In this document: piece after piece, positions 45,668-64,000 of the stretch | Numbering within the stretch: position 1 is the first letter of the stretch | How the letters are laid out: each line of letters starts with the position of its first letter | Origin: Rheinheimera sp. MMS21-TC3 | GTDB lineage: Bacteria > Pseudomonadota > Gammaproteobacteria > Enterobacterales > Alteromonadaceae | Direction: 5' to 3' | DNA length: 64,000 bases | NCBI RefSeq assembly: GCF_032229285.1 | Contig: NZ_CP135084.1 | Coordinates: 2,418,001-2,482,000, forward strand | The notes under the pieces: generated by a model | What the model was told of the DNA's origin: nothing | Seen by the model: the letters and a program-made list of their open reading frames with translations, nothing else | Databases searched by the model: none | Position numbers and translations under genes: made by a program

Positions 45668-45673
45668 GGTTTC

Positions 45674-48582: not shown

Positions 48583-49304
48583 GCTGCTGGTTGCTCCGTT
48601 TTCACCGCTTTACTTAGCTGCGCCTGCTTAGCTAGCTCTCTTGCTACTTTACTAACAAAAATCAATTGCATAGGCTCAGTAAAGGGGGCTAATTGTTGCT
48701 GGCTTTGCAGCAGAACACCACTGCTGGCATCAAACCAAAATATATTTTGCCAGCGTTGATCGAAGCGCAAAAAGTTAGCAGGAGTAGCATAATCTAAGTA
48801 TTCAATTACCTTAGTTACTGCAATATCTTGTTGAAAAACATTAATGGTATGCCCTGTCTCCACCTTAAAAGATGAGCTTACGCTATAGCCATACTCACCT
48901 GCACGCCAATCAACTAGGCGCTGCCAATGGCTTTGTTCGTTTATAGCTTGCCAGTTAGCAATAGGATCAGTAGTTGTAGCTGTTAGCTTAAGTAAATCAT
49001 TACTAAAGCCTAAGGTTTTGGTAATACGGCCATTATTGGTAATAAGCATAGCTTGGTCAGAAGAAATCCATTTTAAGTCACCCTGCTCTACAAACATTAA
49101 CGCCATAACACTTTGCGGACGGTCACCGTGAGTCACATATAAGAAGTCAAAGTCTGCGTTAGATACCTCTGCCAAGGTTAAGCTGGCATCAGGTTGGCGA
49201 GTAAAAGCTAGTTGTAGCGTGTCTTTATACGAATGATAAGTACCTGCACATGACGTTAGACTTATTATTACAGCTGCAGCTGCCAACCATTTCAGCAAAA
49301 CCAT
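48579..49304 (-). CDS. yjbF: YjbF/GfcB family lipoprotein
   Basis: 241 residues with lipobox LTSC (Cys at about 19). The GfcB/YjbF domain (PF11102) is recognised from ADFDFLYVTHGDRPQSVMALMF, DLKWISSDQAMLITNNGRITKTLGFSNDL and FWFDASSGVLLQSQQQL. Outer-membrane lipoprotein of the exopolysaccharide operon. The gap to the YjbE-like gene holds a terminator-like hairpin, which could cut expression of the downstream genes relative to it. Confidence 0.88.
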   Translation of the reverse strand: MVLLKWLAAAAVIISLTSCAGTYHSYKDTLQLAFTRQPDASLTLAEVSNADFDFLYVTHGDRPQSVMALMFVEQGDLKWISSDQAMLITNNGRITKTLGFSNDLLKLTATTTDPIANWQAINEQSHWQRLVDWRAGEYGYSVSSSFKVETGHTINVFQQDIAVTKVIEYLDYATPANFLRFDQRWQNIFWFDASSGVLLQSQQQLAPFTEPMQLIFVSKVARELAKQAQLSKAVKTEQPAA

Positions 49305-49396
49305 AGAATACCCAACCTAAAAAAGTATAAATATTACCCTAAAAGCGACTATATTAAAGAAGTGATTTACTACTTTTTAATATTAATATTTCAATA

Positions 49397-49422
49397 AAAA
49401 AGCCGCCCTGTGGCGGCTTTTT
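49397..49422 (-). terminator. Hairpin between yjbE-like and yjbF-like genes
   Basis: AAAAAGCCGCC-CTGT-GGCGGCTTTTT, a strong intrinsic-terminator structure working in either direction, placed inside the presumed operon. Confidence 0.85.
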
Positions 49423-49436
49423 AAACGACTTAAAAC

Positions 49437-49787
49437 TTACTGAACAATTGCAGGGTAAGTAAAGGTTACAGTCGCAGTTGTAGTACCGGTGCCCGTACCA
49501 GTAACAGTAGTAGTAGTGGTACCTGTACAAATACCATTTACGGGAGCTGCATCACCTGTATTACAGGTTTCTACTGGGTCAACTGGGGTTACCACTGAAG
49601 TACTGCTACTGTTAGACACTATTGCAGCAACAACAGCCACACCTACTACACCAGCTGCTACTGTTGTAGTGGCTACACCACCAATAGTACTACCAGGGGC
49701 AAAAAAACCACCTGCTTTATCATCTTGAGCGTTAACACCTAAAGATAACAACAACGCCGAAGCGGCAATAACTAATTTCTTCATCAC
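49437..49787 (-). CDS. yjbE: YjbE/GfcA-like Thr-rich exported protein
   Basis: 116 residues. Signal peptide to about residue 20 (LLSLGVNAQ-DD), a hydrophobic Gly/Ala/Val segment (GGVATTTVAAGVVGVAVVAAIVS) and a Ser/Thr-rich tail with a Cys pair. YjbE and GfcA are small Thr-rich proteins heading the exopolysaccharide operon in E. coli; position and composition fit, though such proteins align poorly. Followed by a terminator hairpin, so it may be made in excess. Confidence 0.75.
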   Translation of the reverse strand: MMKKLVIAASALLLSLGVNAQDDKAGGFFAPGSTIGGVATTTVAAGVVGVAVVAAIVSNSSSTSVVTPVDPVETCNTGDAAPVNGICTGTTTTTVTGTGTGTTTATVTFTYPAIVQ

Positions 49788-49907
49788 TAATTCCTTATGC
49801 CAAATTTAAACTTACAATTACTGTTAAGAGTAAACTAAAAGACTACTATACTCAACTAACTTATCTATTTTTTTAAGCCTCTTAACGATTTTAAAGCTAA
49901 AAGCCTG

Positions 49908-51839
49908 CTACTGACCCAAAGCTTTTTTTGCCAACTGTGCATTAATATCTATTACTTCTGTTTTTCTGGCTTTTGCAACCAAATCAGTCACACTTGAATG
50001 GTTAAACTCCGTTGGCGCTGCTTGCAATAAGTCAACTATTTCTTGAACAGCAAAGTCACTACAGTAAGCATCTAGTTGCAACAAAACCCTTTCCATTTCA
50101 GGCCAAGTTAAACACACCTCATCAGCCGCCATAATTCTTGGATGCTCAGTATCTCGAACATTATCACCAATCAACAACTCTTCAAATAACTTTTCACCTG
50201 GGCGTAACCCTGTGTATTGTATTTCTATATCACCACTGGAATGAACTTCATCTTTTACTTCTAACCCCATTAAATGGATCATTCGCCTTGCTAAATCAGC
50301 TATTTTTACCGGCTCGCCCATATCTAGCACAAATACATCACCACTGCCGCCCATAGCACCAGCTTGGATAACTAGCTGCGCCGCCTCGGGTATAGTCATA
50401 AAATAACGAATAATATCTTTATGAGTTACCGTTACAGGGCCACCACGGCGAATTTGCTCTCTAAACAAAGGTACTACCGAGCCACTAGAGCCTAATACAT
50501 TACCAAAACGGACCATACAAAAACGGGTTTTTGTTTGCCGCTTAGCTAAAGCTTGCAATACTAACTCTGCTAAGCGCTTCGACGCGCCCATTACATTTGT
50601 TGGCCTAACCGCTTTATCAGTTGAAATAAGCACAAAGTTTTCTACCTTAGCGGCAATGGCGGCTTCAGCCGCGTACCAGGTGCCAAAAACGTTGTTAGTC
50701 ACGCCTTCAACAATATTATATTCAACCAGCGGCACATGCTTATAAGCCGCAGCATGGTATACCGTATCTACCATAAAAGCAGACATAACAGACTGCATCC
50801 GCTCACGCCTTTGCACTGAGCCCATAATAGGTAGTAATTTAATCTCTAGCTGTTGCCTAGCTATGGTTGCACTTAACTCTTGCTCTATGGTGTATAAGCT
50901 AAACTCACAGCGCTCAAACAACACTAATGCTTTTGGTGCACATAATAAAATTTGCCGACACAACTCTGAGCCAATAGAACCACCAGCTCCGGTTACCATA
51001 ACCACTTTACCGCGAATATTGGCTTCCAGTAATTTAGTTTGTGGTGCTACTGCCTCACGGCCTAATAAATCTTCAATTTTAACATCTTGTAGCTCATCAA
51101 TCTTCATTGAGCCATCAACTAAATCACTCATACCAGGAATAGACTGCACAGGTATAGGTAACTTTTCTAGCGAGTCTAATACTTCACGCCGACGTGAGCG
51201 CGAAGCCGAAGGCAAGGCTAATAAAATACGACTAACATTTTTCTTTTTAACTAAAATATTTATAGCTGAAGGATTACCAACCGGAATACCCAAAATTGTT
51301 GAACGCTGCAAAGTTGTATCGTCATCAATAAATACCACTGGATGATACTGCTCACCATTAAATAAAGCTTGAGCAAGCTGACGCCCAGATGAGCCAGCAC
51401 CGTAAATTAATACTCGTTCTTTGTGGCCATTATTACGTTGCACCAAAAACACTCTGGCCAATAAGCGAATACCACCTGCACTAATTAAAGATAAAATAGC
51501 GTAAACAAAAATTAAGTTACCCTTATCTTCAACGTCAAAGGCTTTAAATAATAAGGCTAATATAATGGCGTTACTTACAATACCAGCCAATATAGCACCT
51601 AAGGCATGCTGGCCAATATAACGAATAACTGCCCGATACAACCCTAATTTAACAAAAAGCAATAATGTGAACGGTAAAGTGATAACAAAGGCAAGTGCAA
51701 TACTAGTTGCTTGATAAGAATCTGTACCTTGAGTAAGAAAATAAGCACCAATGAAAGAACAACTTAAAAACACAACATCAAATAATACCGAAATTGCGCG
51801 CTTAATATAGCGAGGTAAGCCTAATAGAAATGCCAACAT
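49908..51839 (-). CDS. Membrane-bound UDP-GlcNAc 4,6-dehydratase type (WbpM/CapD/PglF family)
   Basis: 643 residues. Four N-terminal spans (about 12-110), a CoA-binding-like Rossmann domain (RVLIYGAGSSGRQLAQAL), then the SDR domain with NAD motif VTGAGGSIGSELCRQI and the catalytic segment STDKAVRPTNVMGASKR (Met replacing Tyr, as in WbpM). AAAYKHVPLVE and GLRPGEKLFEE complete the pattern. It makes UDP-4-keto-6-deoxy sugars for surface polysaccharide. Co-directional with the yjb cluster 120 bp away. Confidence 0.92.
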   Translation of the reverse strand: MLAFLLGLPRYIKRAISVLFDVVFLSCSFIGAYFLTQGTDSYQATSIALAFVITLPFTLLLFVKLGLYRAVIRYIGQHALGAILAGIVSNAIILALLFKAFDVEDKGNLIFVYAILSLISAGGIRLLARVFLVQRNNGHKERVLIYGAGSSGRQLAQALFNGEQYHPVVFIDDDTTLQRSTILGIPVGNPSAINILVKKKNVSRILLALPSASRSRRREVLDSLEKLPIPVQSIPGMSDLVDGSMKIDELQDVKIEDLLGREAVAPQTKLLEANIRGKVVMVTGAGGSIGSELCRQILLCAPKALVLFERCEFSLYTIEQELSATIARQQLEIKLLPIMGSVQRRERMQSVMSAFMVDTVYHAAAYKHVPLVEYNIVEGVTNNVFGTWYAAEAAIAAKVENFVLISTDKAVRPTNVMGASKRLAELVLQALAKRQTKTRFCMVRFGNVLGSSGSVVPLFREQIRRGGPVTVTHKDIIRYFMTIPEAAQLVIQAGAMGGSGDVFVLDMGEPVKIADLARRMIHLMGLEVKDEVHSSGDIEIQYTGLRPGEKLFEELLIGDNVRDTEHPRIMAADEVCLTWPEMERVLLQLDAYCSDFAVQEIVDLLQAAPTEFNHSSVTDLVAKARKTEVIDINAQLAKKALGQ

Positions 51840-52151
51840 GGAACAGCCCCGTGTTTAGTTTATGCTTGATAAAACAAAAAGGAGATAACATAAATTACAA
51901 AGCTGCCATTTTATACTTAATGCACAAAACAAACTAGTCTCAATACAGTGTAGACTATTGCTGAGTAATTAGCCTTATACTCTTACCGTTAAACATAAAG
52001 ACCATAGTTTACATCCTGTAACTGAACCTAAGATGTACTACTATGGTCAAGATGCATCGTTAAAAGCAGACTAAGATTGCCAAACCAAGTGTTTAACACA
52101 CTAAGATAACAAAGTATTAAAACTAGAGAGTATTATATAATAAATCTAGCC
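51840..52151. other. Intergenic region with an imperfect long hairpin
   Basis: 312 bp, AT-rich. GACCATAG..TACATC (52000-52015) pairs with GATGTA..CTATGGTC (52032-52048). On the minus strand the stem is followed by TTTATGTTT, so it may end transcription of the DsbA-like gene. No gene seen. Confidence 0.45.
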
Positions 52152-52871
52152 TTACTTTGCTAGCTCATCAATAATTTTACTGAACTCTTCTACGCTTTTT
52201 GCACCAACAATAATTTCATAGTCAGTTACAGTATCGCCATCAATACGGCCTATAACAAAGGCTGGTGTATCGCCTAACCCCATTTCACTGGCATATTTTG
52301 CTGATAACGTAACGCTATTGTGAACATCAGTATTTTTTAAGCAATGTTGAAATGCGTCGCTATCTAAAGAAAAAGTATCTGGGATCGTGTTGAGATAATC
52401 TAAAGTTAAGCCTGAGGCACCAATTGAAAACAGCTCATTTTTAACCTCTGCATATTTATTTTGTTGGTTTGCACAGCGTAAAATTACCGCTGCCATACCC
52501 GCATTTTTATGTAAATTCAGTAATGGCAATTCACGGCCTACAAATAAAAGCTTATTGGTATCGATATACGCTTGTTTTAACTCTGGATATACTTCTTCAT
52601 GAAATTTTTTGCAAAACGGACAGTGTAAGTCTGTAAATTCAATTATGGCTACATTGGCGTTGTTGCTTCCAACACGTATACCGTCCGCCATTTCAATTGA
52701 GTCAGGCCTTACGCGATCACCCATACCTATTTTACGGGCGATTAGAGCCTGTAATTGCTTTACTTCTGCCAACTCGGCTTTTAGAGCATTAATTTCAGCT
52801 TCCTGAGGGGATGCACAACCTTGCAGCCATAAAGTACCTAACAGTACAAAAACAATTTTTATTAACTTCAT
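52152..52871 (-). CDS. DsbA-like thiol:disulphide oxidoreductase lipoprotein
   Basis: 239 residues with lipobox LQGC (Cys at about 19) and a short coiled coil (EAEINALKAELAEVKQLQALI). The thioredoxin fold carries the active site DLHCPFCKKFH (CPFC) and a cis-Pro region LGDTPAFVIGR. It should act in the periplasm, probably as an oxidase or isomerase. It lies 66 bp after the putative S-layer gene, separated by a terminator. That protein has four Cys after its signal peptide, so a chaperone role for it is a reasonable inference. Confidence 0.88.
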   Translation of the reverse strand: MKLIKIVFVLLGTLWLQGCASPQEAEINALKAELAEVKQLQALIARKIGMGDRVRPDSIEMADGIRVGSNNANVAIIEFTDLHCPFCKKFHEEVYPELKQAYIDTNKLLFVGRELPLLNLHKNAGMAAVILRCANQQNKYAEVKNELFSIGASGLTLDYLNTIPDTFSLDSDAFQHCLKNTDVHNSVTLSAKYASEMGLGDTPAFVIGRIDGDTVTDYEIIVGAKSVEEFSKIIDELAK

Positions 52872-52885
52872 TTATGTTCCTTAAT

Positions 52886-52912
52886 TAAAAAAGCCCTCGA
52901 TAACGAGGGCTT
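52886..52912 (-). terminator. Terminator of the putative S-layer gene
   Basis: AAGCCCTCG-ATAA-CGAGGGCTT; on the minus strand the stem is followed by six T. It ends 25 bp after the stop codon. Confidence 0.9.
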
Positions 52913-52937
52913 AATATTAACTAACTAAAAAGAGTTA

Positions 52938-54728
52938 TTACTCTCTCCAGTCGTTTAAGTCTAATACTGGAGTTACACGGTCGCCAGTTGATAAACGCTG
53001 TACACCGAAACCGTGAACTTTGTCACGAGGAGCAGTAACAGTGAATGTCATAGTTTGACGTCTGTCGTGTGAGCTAGTTTCAACACCAGTTGCACCAGCA
53101 GCATAGCCACCGTCAGCACCTAAGTAACCAGCTTCAGTTTCAGCTTGAGCAATTACGTCAGGAATAAAGTAAACTACTGATGATTTAGCAGGTACTTGGC
53201 CTAAAGATACAGCTTCAACAGCACGGTTAGCAACAGTACCATCAGCTGATTCGCCGAAAACATCAACAGTTACTTCAGCAGCTTCGCTATGCTCGTTAGT
53301 AATACGAACGAAGTTACCTTCTGCATTAAAGGTATAAGGTACTTTTAATACAGCGCCGTTAACACCGATGTTGTGAGTTAACTTGTTCGCTTCACAGTGA
53401 TCAAGCAAGTTAGCATCATCGAAGTCTAACGTGTAGTGCGTGTTAACTTTGTAGTTAAAGTTCATGATATCAGCTGGAGATGTATTAGTAACAACATAAT
53501 ACATTTCGTTGTATAAAGCACCATCTAATACTGTGCCTACTGCAGCAGGGTTAACTTCTGGGTCACCGCCAGTTGCATCTGGTGTGAACACGTCTGTAGC
53601 ATAAGTGTCATACACTGTAGCGGTAGCTAAAGTTGTACCAAACTCACCCCAAAGGATACCTGATTCAACAACTTCTTGAGTATCTAAAACACCTGTTGCT
53701 GCTAAACGTGCATTCCATAAACCCATTTCAACGTTTGAACGTGGGTCAGAAGAGGCAACAAAAGCAGTTTTTAGGTAGTCATCAACTTGTAATACAACAG
53801 CGCGATCTAAAACAGGCGCACGGTCATAGAAAGCTGTTTTATAAACAGCTTCGTGCTGCTTAGCAACTAACTGGTTAGTCACATCAGATGCATCATAAAC
53901 AAACTCAGTACGAGCAACTACAGCTGCACCAGCGCTATCAGCACTTTCTGCGTTCACTTCAACTTCAGCTGTAGTGCCGCCATGTAAAGCATAGAATTGC
54001 GGAGTTATATCGATAATTTTTTGTACTTTAGAAACACCACCTTCGATATTAAAACCTGTACCACCGTCTGTTCTAGCATAAGTAGCACGAATACTTACTG
54101 ACTGGTTAGATTCAGCAGTTGTACAAGTCGTGTTTTCAATTTTTAAACCTACTGGAACGATATCTGCTAAATCAGTGCCACTAGAAATTAATGAAAACGC
54201 TAAACGTGTACCAGCACCAATAGTAATACCAGCTTTAGTTAAGAAAGTAACAGCACCAGTACCATCTAAAACGCCGTCAGAAGAGGCTACAGCAACAAAA
54301 GTACCAGCATTATCTAAATCTTCTTTAACTAAGTGAATTTGGTTAGCGTTACCGTGAAATTTAGCACCAGTTAATTCCATACGAATTTCTGTGCCTGATG
54401 GAATATCAGTAGTAGGGATATAAATGATGTGTTGGTCTTCACCAGTAGCAGCACCAGTACCATCGATATCATCAAAACTTACTACTAAATTACCTGTTAA
54501 TTCATAAGCAATTTTAGTTTCATTGATTGCTTCTAAGTCGGTATCTGAAGCGCCGCCACGAACTGCAACACAAGATGCTAAACCGTAAGTTTTGTCAAAA
54601 GCATGTGGAACTAAACCGTCACCACCTTTATATACTTCAAAACACGCCTCTGTACCTGCGAATGCGTTACCAGCATATAAGCCAGCTAACACTGCAGTAG
54701 AAATAAGCGCTTTATTAAGTTTTTTCAT
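52938..54728 (-). CDS. Putative surface-layer (Slr4-like) exported protein
   Basis: 596 residues (about 61 kDa) with a clear signal peptide, cut near GNAFA-GTEA. The mature part is acidic, beta-rich, Ala/Thr/Val/Gly-rich and poor in Cys: four, at CFEVY, SCVAV, TTCTT and DHCEAN. This composition, a very strong upstream promoter and a 180-nt structured leader suggest an abundant surface protein. It recalls S-layer proteins described from marine Gammaproteobacteria (Slr4 family), a comparison from memory that needs an alignment. It lies directly after a type II-like secretion operon on the same strand, implying secretion by it. It has its own promoter and terminator. There is no catalytic motif. 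Confidence 0.65.
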   Translation of the reverse strand: MKKLNKALISTAVLAGLYAGNAFAGTEACFEVYKGGDGLVPHAFDKTYGLASCVAVRGGASDTDLEAINETKIAYELTGNLVVSFDDIDGTGAATGEDQHIIYIPTTDIPSGTEIRMELTGAKFHGNANQIHLVKEDLDNAGTFVAVASSDGVLDGTGAVTFLTKAGITIGAGTRLAFSLISSGTDLADIVPVGLKIENTTCTTAESNQSVSIRATYARTDGGTGFNIEGGVSKVQKIIDITPQFYALHGGTTAEVEVNAESADSAGAAVVARTEFVYDASDVTNQLVAKQHEAVYKTAFYDRAPVLDRAVVLQVDDYLKTAFVASSDPRSNVEMGLWNARLAATGVLDTQEVVESGILWGEFGTTLATATVYDTYATDVFTPDATGGDPEVNPAAVGTVLDGALYNEMYYVVTNTSPADIMNFNYKVNTHYTLDFDDANLLDHCEANKLTHNIGVNGAVLKVPYTFNAEGNFVRITNEHSEAAEVTVDVFGESADGTVANRAVEAVSLGQVPAKSSVVYFIPDVIAQAETEAGYLGADGGYAAGATGVETSSHDRRQTMTFTVTAPRDKVHGFGVQRLSTGDRVTPVLDLNDWRE

Positions 54729-54775
54729 TCCGTTTTACTCCATGAAATATTTTAAGCAGCAATTTACTGCTTATT

Positions 54776-54789
54776 GGAACACGTGTTCC
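54776..54789 (-). promoter_or_regulatory. Perfect 14-bp palindrome in the S-layer gene leader
   Basis: GGAACACGTGTTCC, 48 nt upstream of the ATG and inside the presumed leader RNA. It is flanked by imperfect repeats AGCAG-N7-CTGCT (54755-54771) and TAGGTAA..AGTGT / ACACT..TTACCTA (54790-54825). Confidence 0.55.
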
Positions 54790-54915
54790 TAGGTAATTAG
54801 TGTATTTCAACACTTTACCTAAGGTATTGAATTCAACTGCGACTTTAGTACAGCAGTCGGTGCTTGCATGCGTTCACCACCTGCAAAAGCCACCGAAGCT
54901 TATTCAACGTGTCGA

Positions 54916-54945
54916 ATCATAACGTTGTTTAACCTTAACAGTCAA
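54916..54945 (-). promoter_or_regulatory. Strong sigma-70-type promoter of the S-layer gene
   Basis: TTGACT (54940-54945) and TATGAT (54916-54921) with an 18-bp spacer. Transcription would start near 54909, giving a leader of about 180 nt. Confidence 0.65.
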
Positions 54946-55011
54946 CATTATTATTTCAAAAAAAACCTTGTAATTGCTTGTTTTTTTAACACTTAGCCCT
55001 AGCTATTTCAG

Positions 55012-57027
55012 TTATTGGTTTATTGGAAAACTATATAACTCAGATAGCTTACGCCCAAATTCATCTAACTCTGTAGTATCTTTAATTATTCTTGGTGTAA
55101 TTAGCACCATTAGCTCAGAACGAGAAAAGTCATTACCCTTAGTTTGAAATAATCTCCCTAAAATGGGTATATCACCTAACAGAGGAACTCTACTGTCATT
55201 CTCATTTAAATCTTCCTGAATCAAACCACCTAAAATAATAGTTTGGCCATTACCTGCTAAAACATTAGTGCTAATACTGCGCGAAGTAATAGTCGGAGAA
55301 GGTATGCTCGACAGAGTATTAGGGCTGCTTTTTGACGTTTCTTGCGATATTTGTAAACTCACTACACCGTCGGCATTAATAATAGGCGTAACAGATAAAG
55401 AAATACCAGTAGAGCGATACTGTACACTTGTTCGCACATTATCAGAAGAGTCTGATTCTCTAAACTCAGTAATAATTGGCACTTGTTGTCCTGAGTTAAT
55501 ACTGGCACTTTCGCCATCTCGCACTACCAAATAGGGCCTAGCTAGTACACGAGTATTCGTTTTACTTGCTAACATTTGTAAAGCTACGTTCCAGTTACCA
55601 TTAAAACCTAAAAATGATAATGAGCCTGTAGTAGACTTTAAGCCTAAAGTAGCAGATTTAGTATGATTAGCTTTAGAATCATAAAACCAATCTATACCTG
55701 CAGATACATTGTCTGACAATTCAACTTCTGCAACAATCACCTGTAAAGCTACTTGCCCTGGCATCCTATCTAACTGCTCTAATAAAGCTAACACCTCTTG
55801 GTATTTACTCGGTGATGTGTTTATAACAATCGCATTTTGACTCTCATCAGCGGTGATCCTAATACTACCGGTTCCACTTTTAGTGCTAGCAATGTTGCCA
55901 CTGGCTTGATTGGGGTTATTATTAACAATACCACTCGTCATTGAGCCTAAAACCGCTTGAAGACTTTTAACTAAATCGCTTGCTTTAGCAAAATTAGGCC
56001 GATAAACATACATTCGCTCGCTTTCACCACCAGTTGCCACATCGAGCATACGCGCCCACATACTAACGCGGTCGCCTAAAGTACTATTTCCAGAATAAAC
56101 AACAACAGCATTTAGTCTATTAATTGGTACCATAGCAATATCTTCACCAATTTGAAGACCTTCTGCTTTCATAAGTTCTTCCATTTGCCCAATAAGGGCA
56201 TCAGGTGATAAATACACCATACTAAGCATTCGTATATCGCGCCCTCTTGCATGAGGCACATCTAGCATATTCACTATTTGTAAGGCACGCTCTATATCAG
56301 CTCTTTTACCTTCCATTACTAATAATCGATTAGTATTATCAGAGTAGGCTTTAGCGTTAGTCAGTTTACCTAAAATGCTAATAATAGAACGAGATGAATT
56401 ATATACATAGGGTACTAATTGAATAACATCGTCACCAGATTCAGGCAAATCTTCTAAGTTACGGCCTATGCCTATAGAGCGATCAAGTACACGGTTAGAC
56501 GCTTTGTTAACGTAGATAATGTTATCTTTAGTATACACCTCAACTTTTTGCTGGCTTAACACCTGACGGGTTATTTGAAATAACTCCTGCGGGCTCACAT
56601 CTTGCTGAATGCTAAGTACCAATTTTTCTCGCATTTGTTCAACTTCAGATGATAAAACATAGCTTAGCGACAACAACTCACCAAAAACATAATGAGCTAG
56701 TTGTGGCACTTCCATCTCATTAACAGCCACTTTAATTGGTGCACTAGTTGCGAAATGAGGCAACTGAGTTAATAAAGGCGATCCTCTTTCTATCGCCCCC
56801 ATACTATCGATCTGATGCTCTGCAAACTCCTGTAAATCAGCTTCTTTTTTGTCAACTGCATTATTTGATACTATAGCTTGCTCTTGTTTTAAAAAAGACT
56901 CATTAATGCTGAAGTTACTTTTTAACTTATCTTTATGATCATTAGATTCGGTTGACACACAAGACACAGTAAGCGTAGTTAGTGTGAGTATAACTAATGG
57001 CTTGATAAATTTGTGTTTGATTCTCAT
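55012..57027 (-). CDS. gspD: Secretin (GspD/MshL-like) lipoprotein
   Basis: 671 residues with lipobox VSC (Cys at about 23). N-domains include repeated N1/N2 folds (VIQLVPYVYNSSRSIISILGKL; MYVYRPNFAKASDLVKSLQAVLG). The C-terminal secretin core has VALQVIVAEVELSDN, a gate region, and SELMVLITPRIIKD. It forms the outer-membrane channel. Being a lipoprotein it may not need a separate pilotin. Last gene of the type II-like operon, 34 bp after the GspC-like gene, with 283 bp to the S-layer gene. Confidence 0.88.
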   Translation of the reverse strand: MRIKHKFIKPLVILTLTTLTVSCVSTESNDHKDKLKSNFSINESFLKQEQAIVSNNAVDKKEADLQEFAEHQIDSMGAIERGSPLLTQLPHFATSAPIKVAVNEMEVPQLAHYVFGELLSLSYVLSSEVEQMREKLVLSIQQDVSPQELFQITRQVLSQQKVEVYTKDNIIYVNKASNRVLDRSIGIGRNLEDLPESGDDVIQLVPYVYNSSRSIISILGKLTNAKAYSDNTNRLLVMEGKRADIERALQIVNMLDVPHARGRDIRMLSMVYLSPDALIGQMEELMKAEGLQIGEDIAMVPINRLNAVVVYSGNSTLGDRVSMWARMLDVATGGESERMYVYRPNFAKASDLVKSLQAVLGSMTSGIVNNNPNQASGNIASTKSGTGSIRITADESQNAIVINTSPSKYQEVLALLEQLDRMPGQVALQVIVAEVELSDNVSAGIDWFYDSKANHTKSATLGLKSTTGSLSFLGFNGNWNVALQMLASKTNTRVLARPYLVVRDGESASINSGQQVPIITEFRESDSSDNVRTSVQYRSTGISLSVTPIINADGVVSLQISQETSKSSPNTLSSIPSPTITSRSISTNVLAGNGQTIILGGLIQEDLNENDSRVPLLGDIPILGRLFQTKGNDFSRSELMVLITPRIIKDTTELDEFGRKLSELYSFPINQ

Positions 57028-57061
57028 TAAATTACTATACCTACGATTAAAGGGTAAATGA

Positions 57062-57607
57062 TTACTTGGTCTGTGGTTTAAATAAATTCAGACTTAGCTG
57101 TGGCAACTCTTGCTCATGTTCAACTTCTTGTTTATTCGGCATAAACAGCGCGGTATTATTGGTTAACTCAATTAAACTATAACCATAAACTTCAGTACCA
57201 ACAGTCACTGTGATTAAACGTGAAGTAGTAGCTATACCAGAGCTTTTCTTATTAAGCATGCTCATATCAACAACCATTCGCCCAGTTAAATTACCATTAA
57301 CCTCATCAATTGCCACAAGCTTAGGAGATAAGTCACTTAAGGTCAGCTGTTTAGGTTTTTCAAGTTTTTTTTCTTCTATCAAAACAGGCGTAACACCAAA
57401 CAGTAAACTAAATGCCTCACTACTAGCTTGGGTATCTTTTAAGCTGCCAAACTGTATGGCTTGTGCAACTTCTTTATCAATATCACGTCCGGTTAAAGGC
57501 GTTACATAAGTCTGACGTACAACAGAAATAAAATGAATCAGCATTGCTACCATTACTGCTACCAATACTAAGATCTCTTGACGATTAAATTTAATCTTCA
57601 TTGGCAA
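57062..57607 (-). CDS. GspC/PilP-like inner-membrane connector
   Basis: 181 residues. One N-terminal span (ILVLVAVMVAMLIHFISVV), a linker, and a C-terminal beta-domain (LSPKLVAIDEVNGNLTGRMVVDM..RLITVTVGTEVYGYSLIELTNNTALF) of the homology-region type in GspC or the PilP/MshK type. It probably joins the inner-membrane platform to the secretin. Overlaps the GspM-like gene by 17 bp; the ATG at 57601 is an alternative start. Identified by position and topology, since the sequence is divergent. Confidence 0.65.
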   Translation of the reverse strand: MPMKIKFNRQEILVLVAVMVAMLIHFISVVRQTYVTPLTGRDIDKEVAQAIQFGSLKDTQASSEAFSLLFGVTPVLIEEKKLEKPKQLTLSDLSPKLVAIDEVNGNLTGRMVVDMSMLNKKSSGIATTSRLITVTVGTEVYGYSLIELTNNTALFMPNKQEVEHEQELPQLSLNLFKPQTK

Positions 57608-58127
57608 CCTCGGGTTTGAGCGGTACTAATATTTCAAGTATTCCTGTCATATCGGATGCAACGCGATTACTCTTTATTAAACGTATACTAGCAAACAAAC
57701 TTCTTGGTTTACCTGTTTCTAAAGCAGCAATTAAACGATAGATATCTTGAGGCTTACCTTTTACAAATACGCTCGCAGGTAAAGTGGTTGCGCCTTTATT
57801 ATTTACTTGGCCTGTATTACGCGTAGTTAGCTCTACACCTACCGCTTTTGCTTCTGCCTCTATATGCTTTAATACTTTTATCGCCAACTGACTTTCAGGA
57901 GCAGAAAACCAAGCTTGCTCTAATTGGGCATAATTATCATCTATCGCTTTTTCTTGAGCTATTAACACAGTAGAACGCTGTTGCACATTAGATAAACGTT
58001 TCTCATTAAGACTTAGTTGATTTATGGTTTGTGTTTTTAAAGTAACCCAATCAAGCCAAGGCACTAATATAAATTTCGCCAACGCCAAAACAATCACAAT
58101 GCCTATTAACAAAGGTTTATTTTTCAT
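57591..58127 (-). CDS. GspM/PilO-like platform protein
   Basis: 178 residues. A single N-terminal span (LLIGIVIVLALAKFILVPWLDWV), a coiled coil (about 35-70), and a ferredoxin-like C-terminal domain (IKVLKHIEAEAKAVGVELT..ASVFVKGKPQDIYRLIAALETGKPRSLFASIRLIKS). This is the bitopic layout of GspM/PilO. It pairs with the GspL-like protein encoded just before it (11-bp overlap). Confidence 0.75.
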   Translation of the reverse strand: MKNKPLLIGIVIVLALAKFILVPWLDWVTLKTQTINQLSLNEKRLSNVQQRSTVLIAQEKAIDDNYAQLEQAWFSAPESQLAIKVLKHIEAEAKAVGVELTTRNTGQVNNKGATTLPASVFVKGKPQDIYRLIAALETGKPRSLFASIRLIKSNRVASDMTGILEILVPLKPEVANED

Positions 58128-59244
58128 TATTAACCTCTTGCTGCATGCTCTGTGTTGTTTTTTCCGAGGTAACTTGAGTTGCCTTTGGCTGATAAACTAA
58201 GCTAATAGTAAAAGTTTCACCACCTTTATTATTGCTTTGTATACTGCGGTCAAACTTTACTTCTGCCCATTCAGGCCTACCACTCAACTTACTAATAACA
58301 TCTACCGCCGATGGTGAAGTGCCACGAATTTGCAATAAAGAACCGCTTTGTTGAATATTATCTAATATTGCATCATCAGCTAGCTGAGTGCTTAGTGTAT
58401 GTAAAATCATACTTGCTGATGGTAGCCGTTTATAAAGATCGCGATATGTTTGTATTGTTTCTGCTTTGTGATCTAACGCTTGCTGTTTATCAAATAAAGC
58501 GCTGGCTTCAGCTTGTAATTGTTTAACTCGCACTTGCAGCCGATTTTCTTGCCAAGTTAACCCTGCCGATATAAACATCATATAAATAGCAACTAAAGCA
58601 GCTGAGTAACCACCGATTTTTTTATAGTCTATAGCTTGTTTTACTTGCTTAGTAGAAGTACGAACTATACAACCAACCAATTCCCACCATTTAAGCGGTA
58701 AAGTTTGCATTTGTAAACTGCTTGGCAAAGTTAGCAGTTCAGGATTTATACCTTTGCTATTTTCACCTAACGCATCTAAAAAGTAACTTTGGTTAACCAT
58801 TAACCCCTGAATAGGTGTTAAATGCAATTGATTAGAGTCGGCTAACCATGCCCAATACGGAGTTTTAGCCTGAACTTTATAGAGCTTTTTCTTTACCAAC
58901 AAACGATAAAGCAGCCAAGTTTCAGGAATAAGAATATGCCAGCCGTTGGGTATATCAGCTATCACTTTTGCGGGTAACAGTGCATATAGCACTTGATACC
59001 GACCATTTTCATTCGACTGAACTTTCCAAATAGCTTTAGAACCTGAACTAGCTAGCACTTTTAGTTCATTACGAATCAACTTAGGTAAATCAGTCAAAGC
59101 TGCTTTATAAGAACGCTGAAACTCAGTGTACTGCTGTTTAGGTAATACCCGTATACGCTGGCTTGCTGAAAGGAACTTGCTATTTTTACTGTTTTCACCT
59201 TTTAGCTGTCGCGGTCTTGTAAACATCTTTGATAATGCTTTCAC
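58117..59244 (-). CDS. GspL-like cytoplasmic-membrane platform protein
   Basis: 375 residues. The cytoplasmic N-terminal part (about 1-210) would contact the GspE ATPase; a single span (YSAALVAIYMMFISAGL) follows at about 215. The periplasmic coiled coil and PilN-like fold come after it (VKQLQAEASALFDKQQALDHKAETIQTYRDLYKRLPSASMILHTLS). Order and topology fit GspL. The ATPase-contact part is strongly diverged from classical GspL. Start overlaps the gspK stop by 4 bp. Confidence 0.75.
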   Translation of the reverse strand: MKALSKMFTRPRQLKGENSKNSKFLSASQRIRVLPKQQYTEFQRSYKAALTDLPKLIRNELKVLASSGSKAIWKVQSNENGRYQVLYALLPAKVIADIPNGWHILIPETWLLYRLLVKKKLYKVQAKTPYWAWLADSNQLHLTPIQGLMVNQSYFLDALGENSKGINPELLTLPSSLQMQTLPLKWWELVGCIVRTSTKQVKQAIDYKKIGGYSAALVAIYMMFISAGLTWQENRLQVRVKQLQAEASALFDKQQALDHKAETIQTYRDLYKRLPSASMILHTLSTQLADDAILDNIQQSGSLLQIRGTSPSAVDVISKLSGRPEWAEVKFDRSIQSNNKGGETFTISLVYQPKATQVTSEKTTQSMQQEVNNEK

Positions 59245-60152
59245 TTGAAGTCGGTTCCTATATAACCGGGTTGTTTTTCTGCAACATAGCTTATCCGCTT
59301 GGTGCTGTTAGCTTTAATTACAACAAAAGATTGCCTATATGCCGCATCTTCAATGGTAATATCAATACTGACTTTTAATCTTCGACTTAAATACACCATC
59401 ATGTCTTCTGAGCGCTCAACCATCAAATCATCACTACTTATATTTTCTTCACCATTACGCATTTTCATAAACTGCTCTGCTCGATAATCGCCAAGCAGTA
59501 CTGGTAACAAGGCGTCTGGTGCAAACTCGTAGTTTATCACATGACTCCCCATAAAAGTAACATAGGGACCAATACGCGACCAGTCTTTCTCTAAGCCTTT
59601 TACTAGCCCTAATTCATCTGTGGTTTGTGGTAAACCATTCCTTGGCAACCCTTCAGAAGCGTAATCTTGCTTTTCTGCGCCATTCAGATGTAAAAAGTCA
59701 TCTGCATCAATCCAGTCTTCAATTGCTGCTACAACATGATCTGGGTTTTCAACATTAAAACGATATAAAAAATTAAGCCATAATCTAGGCTCAAAAGGAT
59801 GAACCGGCACCATTGATGCTGTATCAAAAATTTGAACTTGGGCGTTATTCCAAGTAAATGGAGTACCCCAAAAATTAAATTTTTCAGGTAGCTCTAGTTC
59901 AGCTAAGCGAGCCTTATTAGGACGTTCAGCCCATAAAGGCGTTGTTTGCAAAAGATATATCAGCTCTTCTTTAGCTGATTCAACCGCAGCCCTTGCTAAC
60001 AGGCTGTTTTTTGCTTGTTGAGCTAACCCAATATTAGCTTTACTTTTATACTGATACACAGTCACTACAGTTGCAATAACAGCTGCTAGCATTAGCACTA
60101 AAATCAGTGCCACACCTTTTTGTTGCTTAATACTGCAAAAAAATCTAGCCAT
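59241..60152 (-). CDS. gspK: Minor pseudopilin GspK
   Basis: 303 residues. A basic leader (KQQKG) then VALILVLMLAAVIATVVTVYQYKSKANIGLAQQAKNSL, the GspK prepilin segment without the usual Glu5. The large globular domain has WLNFLYRFNVENPDHVVAAIEDWIDADDFLHLNGAEKQDY and LPQTTDELGLVKGLEKDWSRIGPYVTF, typical of GspK. It caps the pseudopilus tip. Its presence argues for type II secretion rather than an MSHA pilus. Confidence 0.9.
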   Translation of the reverse strand: MARFFCSIKQQKGVALILVLMLAAVIATVVTVYQYKSKANIGLAQQAKNSLLARAAVESAKEELIYLLQTTPLWAERPNKARLAELELPEKFNFWGTPFTWNNAQVQIFDTASMVPVHPFEPRLWLNFLYRFNVENPDHVVAAIEDWIDADDFLHLNGAEKQDYASEGLPRNGLPQTTDELGLVKGLEKDWSRIGPYVTFMGSHVINYEFAPDALLPVLLGDYRAEQFMKMRNGEENISSDDLMVERSEDMMVYLSRRLKVSIDITIEDAAYRQSFVVIKANSTKRISYVAEKQPGYIGTDFK

Positions 60153-60849
60153 CAGTTCTACTCATAAAAATATTAACACGCTGCATATCTGCGTTTTCAA
60201 GTCGAACCCACACTATTTCAGGCTCTTGCTCTGACTCTTGCTCTGCATCGATACTCAACTTAATAAATAGCGGTAGTAATTCTGTATCAAAACCATCCAC
60301 AGAGTTAAACCAAGCAGGGTTATGCGCAACAATACCTTGGTAAGAGTCAGACATTGCATTTAGTCTATCTCGTGCTGAAGGCCAACTATAATATTCAAGA
60401 CGTATATTTTTAACTGGTTTAATTGGTTTCTTATACGTTTCACAAAGTTTTTCAGGGTTGAATTCAGGATTTATTAATAACTTCTGTATAATTAAACGCT
60501 CACAGTAAGTTAGCACTTCATCAATGACACCTAACCAAGCTACTGCTGTTTTACCTTGCTCTTGCATGCTTGTTGTTGTCACCCACGATACATTATCCTT
60601 GTCACCTTTAAACCATGTTTTAACAACATGTGGTTCTACTGGCACCGCATAATTAAATGCAGCCGAAAGTTGCTCTTGCCAAGCTAAGCCAGCTTTAGCC
60701 TGTTGCATTTGTTGTTTAACACGATTCTGCGACTTATTAAACCCCACCACATAAAATGAATAAGCACCGCTGGCTAATGACAAAACTGCCGTCAGTATTA
60801 GGGTGGCTATGAGCATTTCTAATAAAGTTAATCCACGCTGATTTGCCAT
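60145..60849 (-). CDS. gspJ: Minor pseudopilin GspJ
   Basis: 234 residues, a short leader NQRG and the type IV prepilin stretch LTLLEMLIATLILTAVLSLASGAYSFYV with Glu5. Then a GspJ-type domain with VSWVTTTSMQEQGKTAVAWLGVIDEVLTYCERL and IRLEYYSWPSARDR. It belongs to the I-J-K tip complex. Overlaps gspK by 8 bp and gspI by 22 bp. Confidence 0.85.
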   Translation of the reverse strand: MANQRGLTLLEMLIATLILTAVLSLASGAYSFYVVGFNKSQNRVKQQMQQAKAGLAWQEQLSAAFNYAVPVEPHVVKTWFKGDKDNVSWVTTTSMQEQGKTAVAWLGVIDEVLTYCERLIIQKLLINPEFNPEKLCETYKKPIKPVKNIRLEYYSWPSARDRLNAMSDSYQGIVAHNPAWFNSVDGFDTELLPLFIKLSIDAEQESEQEPEIVWVRLENADMQRVNIFMSRTDG

Positions 60850-61235
60850 ATTGTTTGCCTAAAGTCGTAGGTAATTGCAGACTCACTAGAAATAGTGATG
60901 TTATAAAGCACTAAAAAACCCGCTCCTGTTTCCTTAGCTCCTGTCTCGGGACTAAAGCCCCTTATTTCCGGCGCAGCACTTATAACTTCTGCTTTCCAGC
61001 TATATTTATTGTTTACGGTTGTAATATCACCTTTAACTTTTTTCTGCTCTAGCTCATAACGAATATTTGCTTGTATAGTGTTATAGTCCGCTAAGCTATT
61101 TATATATTTTACTGATTGCAGTTGAGTAGCAAAATTTTGCTGAAATACTACAGCAACTAAACCTAAAGTCATAAACAAAATGATTGATGCTATAAGCACT
61201 TCAATCAGGGTAAGACCATAATGCTTTTTCATCAT
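60828..61235 (-). CDS. gspI: Minor pseudopilin GspI
   Basis: 135 residues; leader MKKHYG, then LTLIEVLIASIILFMTLGLVAVVFQQ with Glu5 and a short C-terminal domain (YSWKAEVISAA..GAGFLVLYNITISSES). Size and order fit GspI. It overlaps gspH by 35 bp, an unusually long overlap; a second ATG at 61232 is equally good. Confidence 0.82.
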   Translation of the reverse strand: MMKKHYGLTLIEVLIASIILFMTLGLVAVVFQQNFATQLQSVKYINSLADYNTIQANIRYELEQKKVKGDITTVNNKYSWKAEVISAAPEIRGFSPETGAKETGAGFLVLYNITISSESAITYDFRQTIWQISVD

Positions 61236-61608
61236 CTATCACCAATTGCCATGCTTGGCCGTTTATATACGCCTCTAAAGAAATAGGATCTACAATCCCG
61301 TCGGGTGATACCGAAAGTGTTTTTTCGGCAAAAGAGGTATATTGAAGTGTTAATTCCTGTTCAAACTGCTTACTTTTGGCCTTAATGCTTTTGCCATTAA
61401 CGCTTATCTTTACAGGCCGAGATAAAAAGAAACTGCTATTTTGCATTTGTTCAATAAAAAGCGCACTCAATTGACGCTCTGATCTATGCTTTGCTGACTC
61501 TACTTGCTTCACAGTCAGCGGAAGCACAATACTTAAGCTAAGGGCCATAAGTACCATAACAATCAGTAGCTCTATTAATGTAAACCCTCGAGAATTAAAA
61601 CGGAACAT
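61201..61608 (-). CDS. gspH: Pseudopilin GspH-like
   Basis: 135 residues: leader NSRG, FTLIELLIVMVLMALSLSIVLPLTV, Glu5 present. A GspH-like domain ends LSVSPDGIVDPISLEAYINGQAWQLVID. The major pseudopilin GspG, with its Ca-binding loop, is not seen in this window. Either this protein takes its place or gspG lies beyond the right edge. Overlaps gspF by 14 bp. Confidence 0.8.
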   Translation of the reverse strand: MFRFNSRGFTLIELLIVMVLMALSLSIVLPLTVKQVESAKHRSERQLSALFIEQMQNSSFFLSRPVKISVNGKSIKAKSKQFEQELTLQYTSFAEKTLSVSPDGIVDPISLEAYINGQAWQLVIDDEKALWSYPD

Positions 61609-62785
61609 CTGATGTCGAAACGATACTTAGCAGCATGGTAACCACCACAGAACCTACCAGACCACCCATAACAATAATCAGTAAGGGCTCTAACATACTA
61701 GTCAGTTTCATTGCCCATTGCTCAAAACGCCAACGCGCTCTTTCGCTCATCTCACCAAAAACCACATCTAAATTGCCGCCCTCTTCGCCTACTTTCACTA
61801 GCGACAACATTACCGGCTCTAAAATATCCGTTGCGGCTAAAGAGTCTGATAGCATTTTACCTTGCGACACTTCATCTCTTACTCGCTTTAACTGGCCTTG
61901 AATTTTATTATCATTAGCAATAGCCACCGAAAAACCCAATGCTTGAGCTAAAGGTAAACCGCTTTGCAACATTAACTGCATGGCAGAAATAAAACGAATA
62001 CGCTCACTTAGCAATAAACCATTTTTTATTAAAGGCGTATTTCTTAACGCTGCAGATAAAAAACTTTGAAACCAAGGTTTGCGCCAAGATATGGCAATAA
62101 AAAATACAAACCCGACAATAGCAATAAGTAAGGTAAACTGGTTATCTTGCATCCAAGCGCTACTGTCTAATAAAAAGGCGGTATAGGCCGGAATATCTTT
62201 CATATTGGCAAATAGACCTTCCATACTCGGCACAATAAAGTTAAAAATAGCAAACAATGACACTAAGCAAACCGCAAAAATAAAACCAGGATAAATCATG
62301 GCTTGGTTCACTTTACCTTTTAAATCATTTTGAAATTTTTGGTTATGACCTAGCCGCTCTAGTGTAACCGCTAACTGACCAGACTCTTCACCAATACGAA
62401 CCATTTCACAATATAAGGTATTAAAATAACGTGGGAATTGAGCAAAGGCAGTATGTAAAGGATTACCGCCTCTTACCTGCTCTGTCATCGAGCCTAGCAT
62501 TTCAGCCGCAACCGGATTTGGGTTAGCTTGCGACATCATATCTAAAGCGCGATCTAGCTGAACGCCATTGCGAAGTAACAAAGACAGCTCTACAGTAATT
62601 TGCTCTAAATCACCCGCAGATATACTATTAAATAGCCCAGCATCCGGCTTTAACTGCTTAACCTGTAAAGGCGATAATTGCCTTGCAATAACCAAACCTA
62701 AAGCATCGGTTTCAGTAGCCGCACGAACTCGGCCTTTTACCCGCGAGCCTTGGCCATCTATCGCTTCAAATTCCCAGCTTAACAT
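61595..62785 (-). CDS. gspF: Inner-membrane platform protein GspF
   Basis: 396 residues with two T2SSF domains and three spans (about 162-185, 215-235, 365-390). Hallmarks: FEAIDGQGSRVKGRVRAAT at the N-terminus, LSLLLRNGVQLDRALDMM, VRIGEESGQLAVTLERLGH, MLQSGLPLAQALGF and VKVGEEGGNLDVVFGEMS. It links the ATPase to pseudopilus assembly. Starts 1 bp over the gspE stop. Confidence 0.94.
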   Translation of the reverse strand: MLSWEFEAIDGQGSRVKGRVRAATETDALGLVIARQLSPLQVKQLKPDAGLFNSISAGDLEQITVELSLLLRNGVQLDRALDMMSQANPNPVAAEMLGSMTEQVRGGNPLHTAFAQFPRYFNTLYCEMVRIGEESGQLAVTLERLGHNQKFQNDLKGKVNQAMIYPGFIFAVCLVSLFAIFNFIVPSMEGLFANMKDIPAYTAFLLDSSAWMQDNQFTLLIAIVGFVFFIAISWRKPWFQSFLSAALRNTPLIKNGLLLSERIRFISAMQLMLQSGLPLAQALGFSVAIANDNKIQGQLKRVRDEVSQGKMLSDSLAATDILEPVMLSLVKVGEEGGNLDVVFGEMSERARWRFEQWAMKLTSMLEPLLIIVMGGLVGSVVVTMLLSIVSTSDVPF

Positions 62786-64000
62786 TAACCGGCTACTCGC
62801 ATCACTTCATCAAAGGTGGTAATGCCGCGCAACACCTTTAATAAACCATCTTGCTTTAAGGTTCTTAAGCCTTTGCGCTCACGATATTCACGCACAGATT
62901 TAAGAAAGTTATGATCTTTAGGCATAGACTGAATTTCATAGTCATTAGGCAGATACTCTAAAATAGCAACACGACCTAAATACCCAGTACCACCACAACG
63001 CTCACAGCCTTTACCTACGCATATATCAGGCGTAGCAGAGAAACCCGCTAGCATCTGTTGTAAGTCTGGATGCTTAATAATTAATGCTTCGTTTTCATCT
63101 GTTGTTTTACAGTGAGTACAAATAGTTCGCACTAATCGCTGGGCCATAATAGAAATAACCGAGGCATTTAATAAAAATTCTTCTACACCCAAATCAATAA
63201 GACGGGTAAAGGTTGTAGGTGCATCATTAGTATGCACAGTACTAAACACTAAGTGCCCAGTTAACGATGACTGCATAGCAATACGCGCAGTTTCTTGGTC
63301 ACGTATTTCACCCACCATAATAATATCGGGATCTTGACGGACAATGCTTCTTAAGCCGCGTGAAAAATCAAAGCCAATATCGGTATTCACTTGAACCTGA
63401 TTAATGCCTTCTAACTGATACTCTATAGGATCTTCTAGAGTAATAATCTTTACCGAAGGCTGGTTTAGCTTAGCTAAAAACGAATATAAACTGGTGGTTT
63501 TACCCGAGCCCGTTGGGCCTGTCATTAATATAACGCCGGTGGTCCGTTTTAAATCTTGGTTTATCAGCTCAATTAAGTCATCTTCATAGCCAACAGCTTC
63601 TAAAGAAAAGTTAACCGACTCTTTTAACAAGAAACGCATTACCATACTTTCGCCTTCACCTAGCGGTAACGACGACACCCGGATATCAAGCTCTTTACCA
63701 GCAACACTGGTTTCTATTTTGCCATCTTGTGGCTTTCTGCGCTCGGCAATATCCATACCCGCTAAAATTTTAATCCGCGACACGACACCAAGCTGTAAAT
63801 CTAAAGGAATAGTATCACTTTGATGTAAGATACCATCAACCCGATAACGCACCCGATAGCGGCCACTTAATGGCTCAATATGCATATCTGAGGCACGCAT
63901 TTTTATACCACGAACAATTAAGCTGTTCACTAAATTAACCGTAGGCGCACCATAGGCTAACTCCCGTAACCGCTCTAGCTCTGAGCCAGTATCTTGCATT
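62785..64000 (-). CDS. gspE: Secretion ATPase GspE, N-terminus beyond the window
   Basis: At least 404 residues are visible and the frame continues to the right edge, so the N1/N2 domains are cut off; the ATG at 63999 is probably internal. Walker A GPTGSGKTT, Asp box TLEDPIEYQLEGINQ, Walker B IIMVGEIRDQETARIA, His box GHLVFSTVHTNDAPTT and the zinc finger CTHC..CERC are intact. It powers pseudopilus extension. First visible gene of a ten-gene overlapping operon. Confidence 0.94.
   Translation of the reverse strand, partial: MQDTGSELERLRELAYGAPTVNLVNSLIVRGIKMRASDMHIEPLSGRYRVRYRVDGILHQSDTIPLDLQLGVVSRIKILAGMDIAERRKPQDGKIETSVAGKELDIRVSSLPLGEGESMVMRFLLKESVNFSLEAVGYEDDLIELINQDLKRTTGVILMTGPTGSGKTTSLYSFLAKLNQPSVKIITLEDPIEYQLEGINQVQVNTDIGFDFSRGLRSIVRQDPDIIMVGEIRDQETARIAMQSSLTGHLVFSTVHTNDAPTTFTRLIDLGVEEFLLNASVISIMAQRLVRTICTHCKTTDENEALIIKHPDLQQMLAGFSATPDICVGKGCERCGGTGYLGRVAILEYLPNDYEIQSMPKDHNFLKSVREYRERKGLRTLKQDGLLKVLRGITTFDEVMRVAG

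Follow-up and report, generated by a model that had tools for sequence, protein, structure and literature searches.

A second type II secretion system of Rheinheimera sp. MMS21-TC3 and the Slr4-related coat protein that it probably exports

Which substrate is exported by the second type II secretion system (T2SS) of Rheinheimera sp. MMS21-TC3? The genes in question lie on the minus strand of a 64,000-nucleotide stretch of the single-contig 3.14-Mb genome (G000:C1:2418001-2482000), which is referred to as the window and whose coordinates are used below unless a contig is given. They are arranged in the order gspE, gspF, gspH, gspI, gspJ, gspK, gspL-like, gspM-like, gspC-like and gspD, followed by a gene for a 596-amino-acid protein with a signal peptide (52938..54728) and a gene for a 239-amino-acid thioredoxin-fold lipoprotein with a CPFC motif (52152..52871). 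The initial annotation, which was made from the window sequence, described a tight operon of this kind and proposed a self-contained export locus for a coat protein. All of these genes are present at this place and on this strand, and the proposal is supported by the kinship of the 596-residue protein to the S-layer protein Slr4 and by the linkage of such cargo genes to T2SS genes; export by this T2SS is what we infer. It is thus very probable that the locus is dedicated to the export of an Slr4-related coat protein. Chance is no serious question, as 13 genes are collinear and their arrangement recurs in relatives.

The coat protein and its secretion machine

On the evidence of profiles and predicted structures, the 596-residue protein is a distant relative of Slr4, in a sister family. 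Homologs number 181 at E <= 1e-3 (7999 candidates scored, the best 120 listed). The comparison of 21 or 84 members of this family with 17 or 63 Slr4 members by hhalign gave a probability of 94% and an E-value of about 1e-7, the similarity being confined to the C-terminal 109-113 columns. AlphaFold models of the coat protein and of an Slr4-type protein (P0125 of a Pseudoalteromonas sp., not the P. tunicata type sequence) have pLDDT values of 90.9 and 92.2, are both all-beta and both end in a domain ordered as five strands, one helix and three strands. Kinship in the wider sense of profile-profile similarity together with the same predicted architecture was found, as was an adjacent T2SS, which is expected of Slr4. 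What weighs against a closer relationship is that the window protein does not match the Pfam family Slr4 (PF19526) even at E 10. Three of the 21 family members match PF19526 at E <= 10, the best of which (P0105, 23.9 bits) stays under the cut-off of 25; other members pass this cut-off (P0102, P0107 and P0108 at 26-28 bits, the G243 and G283 cargos at 36-37 bits). The comparison with Slr4 that the initial annotation had called for gave the C-terminal profile match and the shared predicted architecture, and no direct PF19526 match. The possibility that the protein is an unrelated periplasmic one gave way to a distant Slr4 relative with the codon bias of a mass-produced protein.

In the model, the signal peptide (about residues 1-24, its end judged by eye) is followed by a beta-sandwich part (about 24-456) and an ASRAH-like C-terminal domain (about 457-576). 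The first parts of both models match AgI/II and integrin chains, with an rmsd of 7 or more. The C-terminal fold appears to resemble the ASRT/ASRAH domain (2iia), at 14% identity; ASRT/DUF1362 is not among the seven Pfam families found for the 21 members at E <= 10, and 2iia is absent from the 50 matches listed in one Foldseek search. No S-layer protein or RsaA appears among the PDB matches listed for either model, which does not rule such a likeness out. A sequence search of the PDB found no relative of the coat family, and coat homologs were not found in plasmid or phage collections. The models suggest that Slr4-type coats are beta-sandwich proteins, in contrast to the RsaA-like beta-helix that was proposed for Slr4 by threading. 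Tandem paralogues of Slr4-type genes were also seen, with four in a row in G153:C1:1251609-1258569 (L149) and two each in G127 (L144) and G202 (L163).

The linkage of cargo and T2SS genes was followed in a survey of 246 genomes of the family. Matches to the window cargo family occur in 12 of them (strong in 10, weak in 2) and matches to PF19526 in 63, which gives 72 genomes with cargo. The survey covered 74 regions that surround cargo genes and extend mostly to the 5' side, each at most 20 kb long; one genome matching PF19526 (G128, a fragment) and second cargo copies in some genomes were left out. Genes of the gsp type were found in 71 of these 74 regions around window-type or Slr4-type cargo, counted without a control of random regions. 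Of the three exceptions, one is a fragmentary gene, one a second paralogue and one a place where the contig ends. With the window protein as query, phmmer detects cargo of this type at 18 distinct loci, all of which have a T2SS (L015, L017 and L021-L026 were removed from this count as duplicates). The objection that the homologs might mostly occur without adjacent T2SS genes, which the initial annotation had raised against itself, is answered by these counts. Two layouts were observed. In six loci, those of the window and of five relatives, the cargo gene follows the gsp genes (dsb is missing from two of the relatives), and in 12 loci, including ones from Pseudoalteromonas, Pseudocolwellia, Colwellia and Paraglaciecola, the order is cargo-dsb-gsp. 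A lipobox of GspD was detected by a regular expression in 74 of 75 cargo-linked loci and by eye in the remaining one (L133), and the lipobox-bearing GspD is likely to be a self-piloting liposecretin.

At least two GspG proteins are encoded in 70 of the 72 genomes with cargo versus 28 of the 174 without. Part of this contrast comes from other clusters and thus weakens the argument, since 14 of 20 such regions contain a gsp-like cluster in which a secretin was not detected. These regions come from 20 of the 28 genomes with two GspG proteins and no recognised cargo, all of which were searched again; the remaining eight have weak second GspG matches only or are a duplicate. The 14 clusters (L177, L178, L180-L182 and L184-L192, all from Alteromonadaceae-type genomes) encode E, F, several pseudopilins and mostly K, as well as proteins of about 450-660, 280 and often 900 amino acids. 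In L194-L196 the second T2SS is of a third kind: it has a secretin, and the next gene encodes a protein of 152-166 amino acids that lacks cysteine, where a coat protein would be expected. The only clear Slr4-type platform without a coat-like open reading frame (ORF) beside the secretin is L179 (G157), which has perhaps lost its cargo. In L183 the contig breaks off, and the short contig of L193 has no gsp matches.

The whole operon has the order G-E-F-H-I-J-K-L-M-C-D, followed by the coat gene and the CPFC lipoprotein gene. The initial annotation had seen no major pseudopilin; however, gspG was found just beyond the right window edge, at the equivalent of 64475-64879 (PF08334 match at G000:C1:2482481-2482780, i.e., window 64481-64780, 107.5 bits), and its apparent lack is an effect of the window edge. 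The core components GspD, GspE, GspF and GspG are thus encoded together: the secretin gspD (55012..57027; PF00263, 162 bits, and PF03958, with matches to GspD proteins in the PDB down to E 2e-47) has its own lipobox LTVSC, the secretion ATPase gene gspE extends beyond the window edge (62785..64000, running on to the equivalent of 64530; 581 amino acids in L003; PF00437, 405 bits), and gspF (61595..62785; PF00482, 163.8 bits) encodes the inner-membrane platform protein. Among the minor and assembly parts, three could be recognised: the minor pseudopilin GspK (59241..60152; PF21687, 38.5 bits; NF037980, E 3.8e-15, under its cut-off), a divergent GspL-like assembly protein (58117..59244; PilN domain PF05137, 29.2 bits, and position) and a GspM-like protein (57591..58127; NCBIfam GspM NF040576, E 1.6e-7, under its cut-off). 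The minor pseudopilin genes gspH-like (61201..61608; PF07963; TIGR01708, E 7e-10, under its cut-off), gspI-like (60828..61235; PF07963, 22.2 bits) and gspJ-like (60145..60849; PF07963) were assigned mainly by the N-methyl motif and their position in the operon. The small GspC-like protein (57062..57607) matches no family and was recognised by position alone, its name also taking account of an N-terminal membrane anchor. Neighbouring gsp genes overlap by 1 (E/F), 14 (F/H), 35 (H/I), 22 (I/J), 8 (J/K), 4 (K/L), 11 (L/M) and 17 bp (M/C); gspC and gspD do not overlap and are separated by 34 bp. Since a canonical gspC-N cluster is located elsewhere in the genome, near 452.5-463.8 kb (genes taken from ORFs, GspG also by profile), the operon of the window is a second, divergent T2SS. 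The canonical cluster has a larger GspC (316 amino acids) and a GspD with a plain signal peptide (by eye).

The locus is situated in a surface-polysaccharide region. To its left are gfc/yjb exopolysaccharide genes and a polysaccharide-biosynthesis gene of the epimerase type, and to its right, on the opposite strand, pyruvyl transferase, glycosyltransferase and flippase-type genes. Positions 45674-49787 form a yjbH/gfcC/gfcB-like exopolysaccharide operon, and a small gene there (49437-49787) ranks second of the 63 window ORFs in codon adaptation.

The Dsb lipoprotein, the four cysteines and the coat-gene leader

The lipoprotein encoded downstream of the coat gene (PF13462, E 5e-24, and PF01323; lipobox LQGC) was regarded by the initial annotation as the locus's own disulphide helper, and this is the best-supported novel part of the interpretation. 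A profile search revealed that a Dsb gene adjoins the cargo gene in 16 of 18 window-type loci versus none of 61 other cargo loci (L135, to which no ORF could be fitted, was left out), and it directly follows the cargo gene in all 16 close-family loci, across both layouts. As the cargo-dsb order is constant on either side of the gsp genes, the two genes behave as a cassette. The 16 Dsb proteins all have a CPFC or CPYC motif and a TP motif, which we take to be the cis-Pro loop, and a second conserved cysteine pair was seen by eye in the alignment of the 16 sequences; CxxC and TP motif together are those of a thioredoxin-fold oxidoreductase. A lipobox is present in 12 of 16, none of which has Asp at position +2. 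Lipoproteins without Asp at +2 are sent to the outer membrane by the Lol rule, and the Dsb lipoprotein is probably anchored there.

The coat protein has exactly four cysteines, as the initial annotation had counted, at positions 29, 53, 202 and 445. They are invariant in 21 family members; in 84 members C53, C202 and C445 remain invariant and C29 is conserved in at least 90%. All 16 Dsb-linked cargos share the four cysteines, of which 202 and 445 are far apart; bonds 29-53 and 202-445 would be a guess at their pairing. Among the 61 other cargos, 28 are cysteine-free, and the rest mostly have neighbouring cysteines within about 50 residues or near the signal peptide. It is suggested with moderate confidence that the Dsb protein serves the coat cargo, to which it would transfer disulphides.

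Several observations count against this assignment. The association of Dsb and cysteines is essentially that of one cargo clade, with small independent replication. The 61 loci used for comparison include the weak relatives L115 and L116, both without Dsb, as well as fragments or contig ends, where its absence means little, and 4 of the 16 Dsb proteins have no lipobox. Furthermore, the distant relatives L113 and L114 keep the four cysteines plus two more and have no Dsb gene locally, nor was one found in their genomes at the search sensitivity used. Alternatively, the lipoprotein could serve the envelope in general as an oxidoreductase, its gene being no more than a travelling companion of the coat gene, and the housekeeping DsbA would make the coat disulphides. 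T2SS substrates elsewhere use the housekeeping DsbA, and the cysteines of L113 and L114 without a linked Dsb, like the Slr4-type cargos that manage two or four cysteines without one, fit this explanation. It is nevertheless considered improbable, given the position of Dsb directly after the cargo in every close-family locus of both layouts and its occurrence in the 16 genomes searched, where it was found only in the three with close-family cargo; the other 13 comprise two with distant cargo (G016, G030) and 11 without this cargo type. A literature search, outside of which most subscription journals and preprints lay, found no publication in which a Dsb protein is linked to a coat of this kind.

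The expression signals of the coat gene point to strong synthesis. Its codon adaptation index of 0.829 ranks first among the 63 ORFs of the window and exceeds the 0.62-0.75 of the 21 reference genes, which were chosen by their position in the ribosomal-protein region of this genome; the coat protein should therefore be very abundant. The 283-bp region upstream of the coat gene contains a candidate private promoter (TTGACT-18-TATGAT, 54916..54945), both hexamers of which are retained in the relative L112; promoter-like sites in the scanned region are, however, not more common than in shuffled sequences (five found, shuffle mean 9.3). An intrinsic terminator, a hairpin with a T-run, lies between the coat gene and dsb (52891..52912). 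Such a structure was seen by eye in 14 of 15 relatives; the exception is L108, where it may be masked by a dsb start placed too far upstream. The terminator would keep dsb expression below the level of the coat gene. Very strong codon bias, candidate promoter and predicted terminator fit a mass-produced coat.

Between promoter and coat gene lies a leader (54729..54915), which is shared by the six loci of the gsp-cargo layout (the window, L112, L107, L020, L113 and L114). About 53 bases of it are nearly invariant (about 54837-54889), and a 14-base palindrome (GGAACACGTGTTCC, 54776-54789) is perfect in two of the loci and deviates at one position in the remaining four. Of the 31 genomes of the genus, four contain a 27-base core, each of them a single time and without mismatch, and these are also the four where window-type cargo was found. 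The element was not found in the examined loci of the cargo-dsb-gsp layout or in Slr4 loci. Rfam gave no match to the leader (five weak hits, all under the gathering scores, lie at the terminator), and a structure is unsupported by RNAalifold, whose covariation term is about zero. A short ORF was also considered: the 16-codon frame of the window is broken by a one-base gap in L113 and L114 (by eye) while the DNA is nearly identical, and a DNA or RNA element is thus likelier. That the leader regulates coat synthesis is a guess.

Exchange of the coat body

Substrate recognition by T2SSs is a long-standing open question, for which the comparison of the window with L112, the locus with the nearest platform, is of interest. 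The core platform proteins are closely related (GspE 86%, GspF 92%, GspD 77% and GspG 89% identity), the remaining parts less so (K 74%, I 71%, M 62%, J 60%, L 58%, H 55% and C 38%), and the cargos and Dsb proteins are only 45% and 50% identical. Conversely, the window cargo shares 58-61% identity with five cargos of Pseudoalteromonas, whose platforms are far more distant (GspE 51-53%, GspF 39-41%). Expressed as distances, the Pseudoalteromonas cargo is at 0.76 and its GspE at 3.65, versus 1.80 for the L112 cargo and 0.19 for its GspE. The intergenic region upstream of the coat gene is 78% identical to that of L112, against 47% on average in 50 shuffles, and the first 35 residues of the coat are 97% identical in protein and 91% in DNA. 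The identity then drops to 20-28% at residues 36-105, where four Pseudoalteromonas cargos are 28-71% identical to the window coat, and amounts to 37-60% at residues 106-280, 20-28% at 281-420 and 31-74% at 421-595. The coat gene thus looks exchangeable, since leader, signal peptide and core platform match the near relative far better than the body does, and much of the coat body looks as if it had been replaced between conserved ends.

A tentative model of modular coat exchange can be drawn from this, which we hold to be possible rather than probable. Promoter, leader, signal peptide and platform would stay in place and the body would be swapped by end-anchored recombination; the cysteine version of the coat together with Dsb would form a two-gene cassette placed before or after the gsp genes, and the C-terminal sugar-binding domain would tie the coat to the polysaccharide of its host. 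Very fast divergence in place, without recombination, is a serious alternative because the break is patchy, with identity to L112 recovering at residues 106-280 and 421-595, and because GspC, GspH, GspJ, GspL and GspM have diverged as well; the long L112 branch (1.08) in the cargo tree, whose split between the two layouts is weak (65/84), is also in keeping with it. Against fast divergence stand the abrupt fall after residue 35 into a stretch where Pseudoalteromonas cargos are more similar, the close core platform and the opposite order of cargo and GspE distances. Moreover, the GspE, GspF and GspD trees pair the window with L112 at 99-100%, whereas a cargo tree with the two as sisters is rejected (AU p 0.001). 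Fast divergence is accordingly judged unlikely, though only slightly more so than exchange. The Dsb tree groups L112 and the window at 54/43 (AU 0.08 against a single clade of the four Dsb proteins from the cargo-dsb-gsp layout) and speaks neither for nor against co-travel of Dsb with the cargo. A transfer of the coat from Pseudoalteromonas to the window lineage, read from tree topology alone, was dismissed as unsupported in view of the weak branch of the cargo tree.

The locus would represent a system with one machine and one main substrate in which close platforms serve coats of about 45% identity; residues 1-35 and a large share of the C-terminal domain are common to these coats. The divergence of GspC along with the cargo and the shared ends of the coat point to where the recognition signal could lie. 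A broken coat copy at G000:C1:8382-9841 was rejected as a silent second gene; it belongs to a 9.8-kb copy (G000:C1:1-9831, L013) at the very start of the only contig, which is 99.43% identical to window 44542-54397 and is likely an assembly artefact. The copy differs from the window by only 7 mismatches but by 7 insertions and 34 deletions, 21 of which remove a single kind of base within a run of at least 3; its indels break reading frames, and it is probably an unpolished long-read overhang.

Proposed mechanism and comparison with known systems

According to the proposed mechanism, the coat precursor would cross the inner membrane via Sec, as its signal peptide suggests, and the periplasmic Dsb lipoprotein would help to form its disulphides. 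The folded protein would then be pushed out through the second T2SS with its predicted liposecretin GspD, for which the P49 system of Shewanella vesiculosa HM13 provides a precedent. Outside the cell, the beta-sandwich part would build the coat, and the ASRAH-like domain, judging from its modelled fold, would probably hold it to surface polysaccharide made by the neighbouring genes. Sugar binding by ASRAH is itself a prediction (PMC2739507). A sugar-binding foot would fit the polysaccharide neighbours and the detachment of P49 in glycolipid mutants, as well as a loading process mediated by capsular polysaccharide, to which a further publication refers in its title.

Whether the coat forms a lattice on the cell is less certain than its export. 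P49 is described as a vesicle cargo, and by analogy the coat might sit on outer-membrane vesicles instead of forming a lattice. In this alternative, the cargo would be a major coat or cargo of vesicles, loaded by the same kind of T2SS via surface polysaccharide, and there would be no cell S-layer. It is in line with the gene order of the P49 cluster, which is the same and also lies beside polysaccharide genes (PMC6971210), with the report that P49 comes off both vesicles and cells when surface-glycolipid genes are disrupted (PMC7281004), and with the fold of the C-terminal domain, of a kind predicted to bind sugars (PMC2739507). However, the likeness to P49 is one of gene order; two 7-residue pieces of the 22-residue N-terminus of P49 are absent from 187 proteins and the examined ORFs. 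Slr4, the closest family with a tested function, is described as a square lattice on cells that is also vesicle-associated (PMC7821379), and the two readings overlap. The vesicle alternative is rated as rather doubtful, and a cell lattice is preferred, with less confidence than dedicated export of the coat.

The idea of a dedicated T2SS for a coat protein has already been published for relatives. In VapA of Aeromonas salmonicida, likened here by description alone, a dedicated T2SS is required for S-layer formation, as cited in PMC10765051. The same paper reports that the NpdA S-layer gene of Paracidovorax and Delftia adjoins gsp genes; the likeness to the window locus is one of gene context alone, and the part of the article at hand makes no mention of a Dsb helper. 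In S. vesiculosa, the disruption of gspD2 removes P49 from vesicles (PMC6971210), so that export has been tested there. As in the window, the system is a second, non-canonical T2SS surrounded by polysaccharide genes, with the order G-E-F, three prepilins, K, four hypothetical genes and D. P49 differs from the window coat in its mature length of 451 residues, in being a vesicle cargo and in the hypothetical gene between D and P49; the authors report GspCLM and GspHIJ as missing, and their table names no Dsb (PMC6971210).

The closest counterpart is Slr4 of Pseudoalteromonas tunicata (PF19526), for which a dedicated T2SS was proposed from gene neighbourhoods (PMC11094555). Like the window protein, Slr4 (PMC7821379, PMC11094555) has a T2SS beside the coat gene and a Sec signal, and the model of the Slr4-type protein is all-beta as well. 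The C-terminal element order is also the same, the C-terminal profiles match significantly, and GspD of Slr4-type loci has a lipobox. Unlike Slr4, the window protein has no PF19526 match and possesses four conserved cysteines and a linked Dsb, which was seen in none of the 61 other loci. If confirmed, the conserved pairing of the four-cysteine coat with a private Dsb lipoprotein would mean that a coat protein of a T2SS has a disulphide helper dedicated to it. What appears to be new relative to these systems is the sister family with four cysteines and a Dsb cassette, together with the apparent replacement of the coat body, the conserved leader and the fold of the C-terminal domain.

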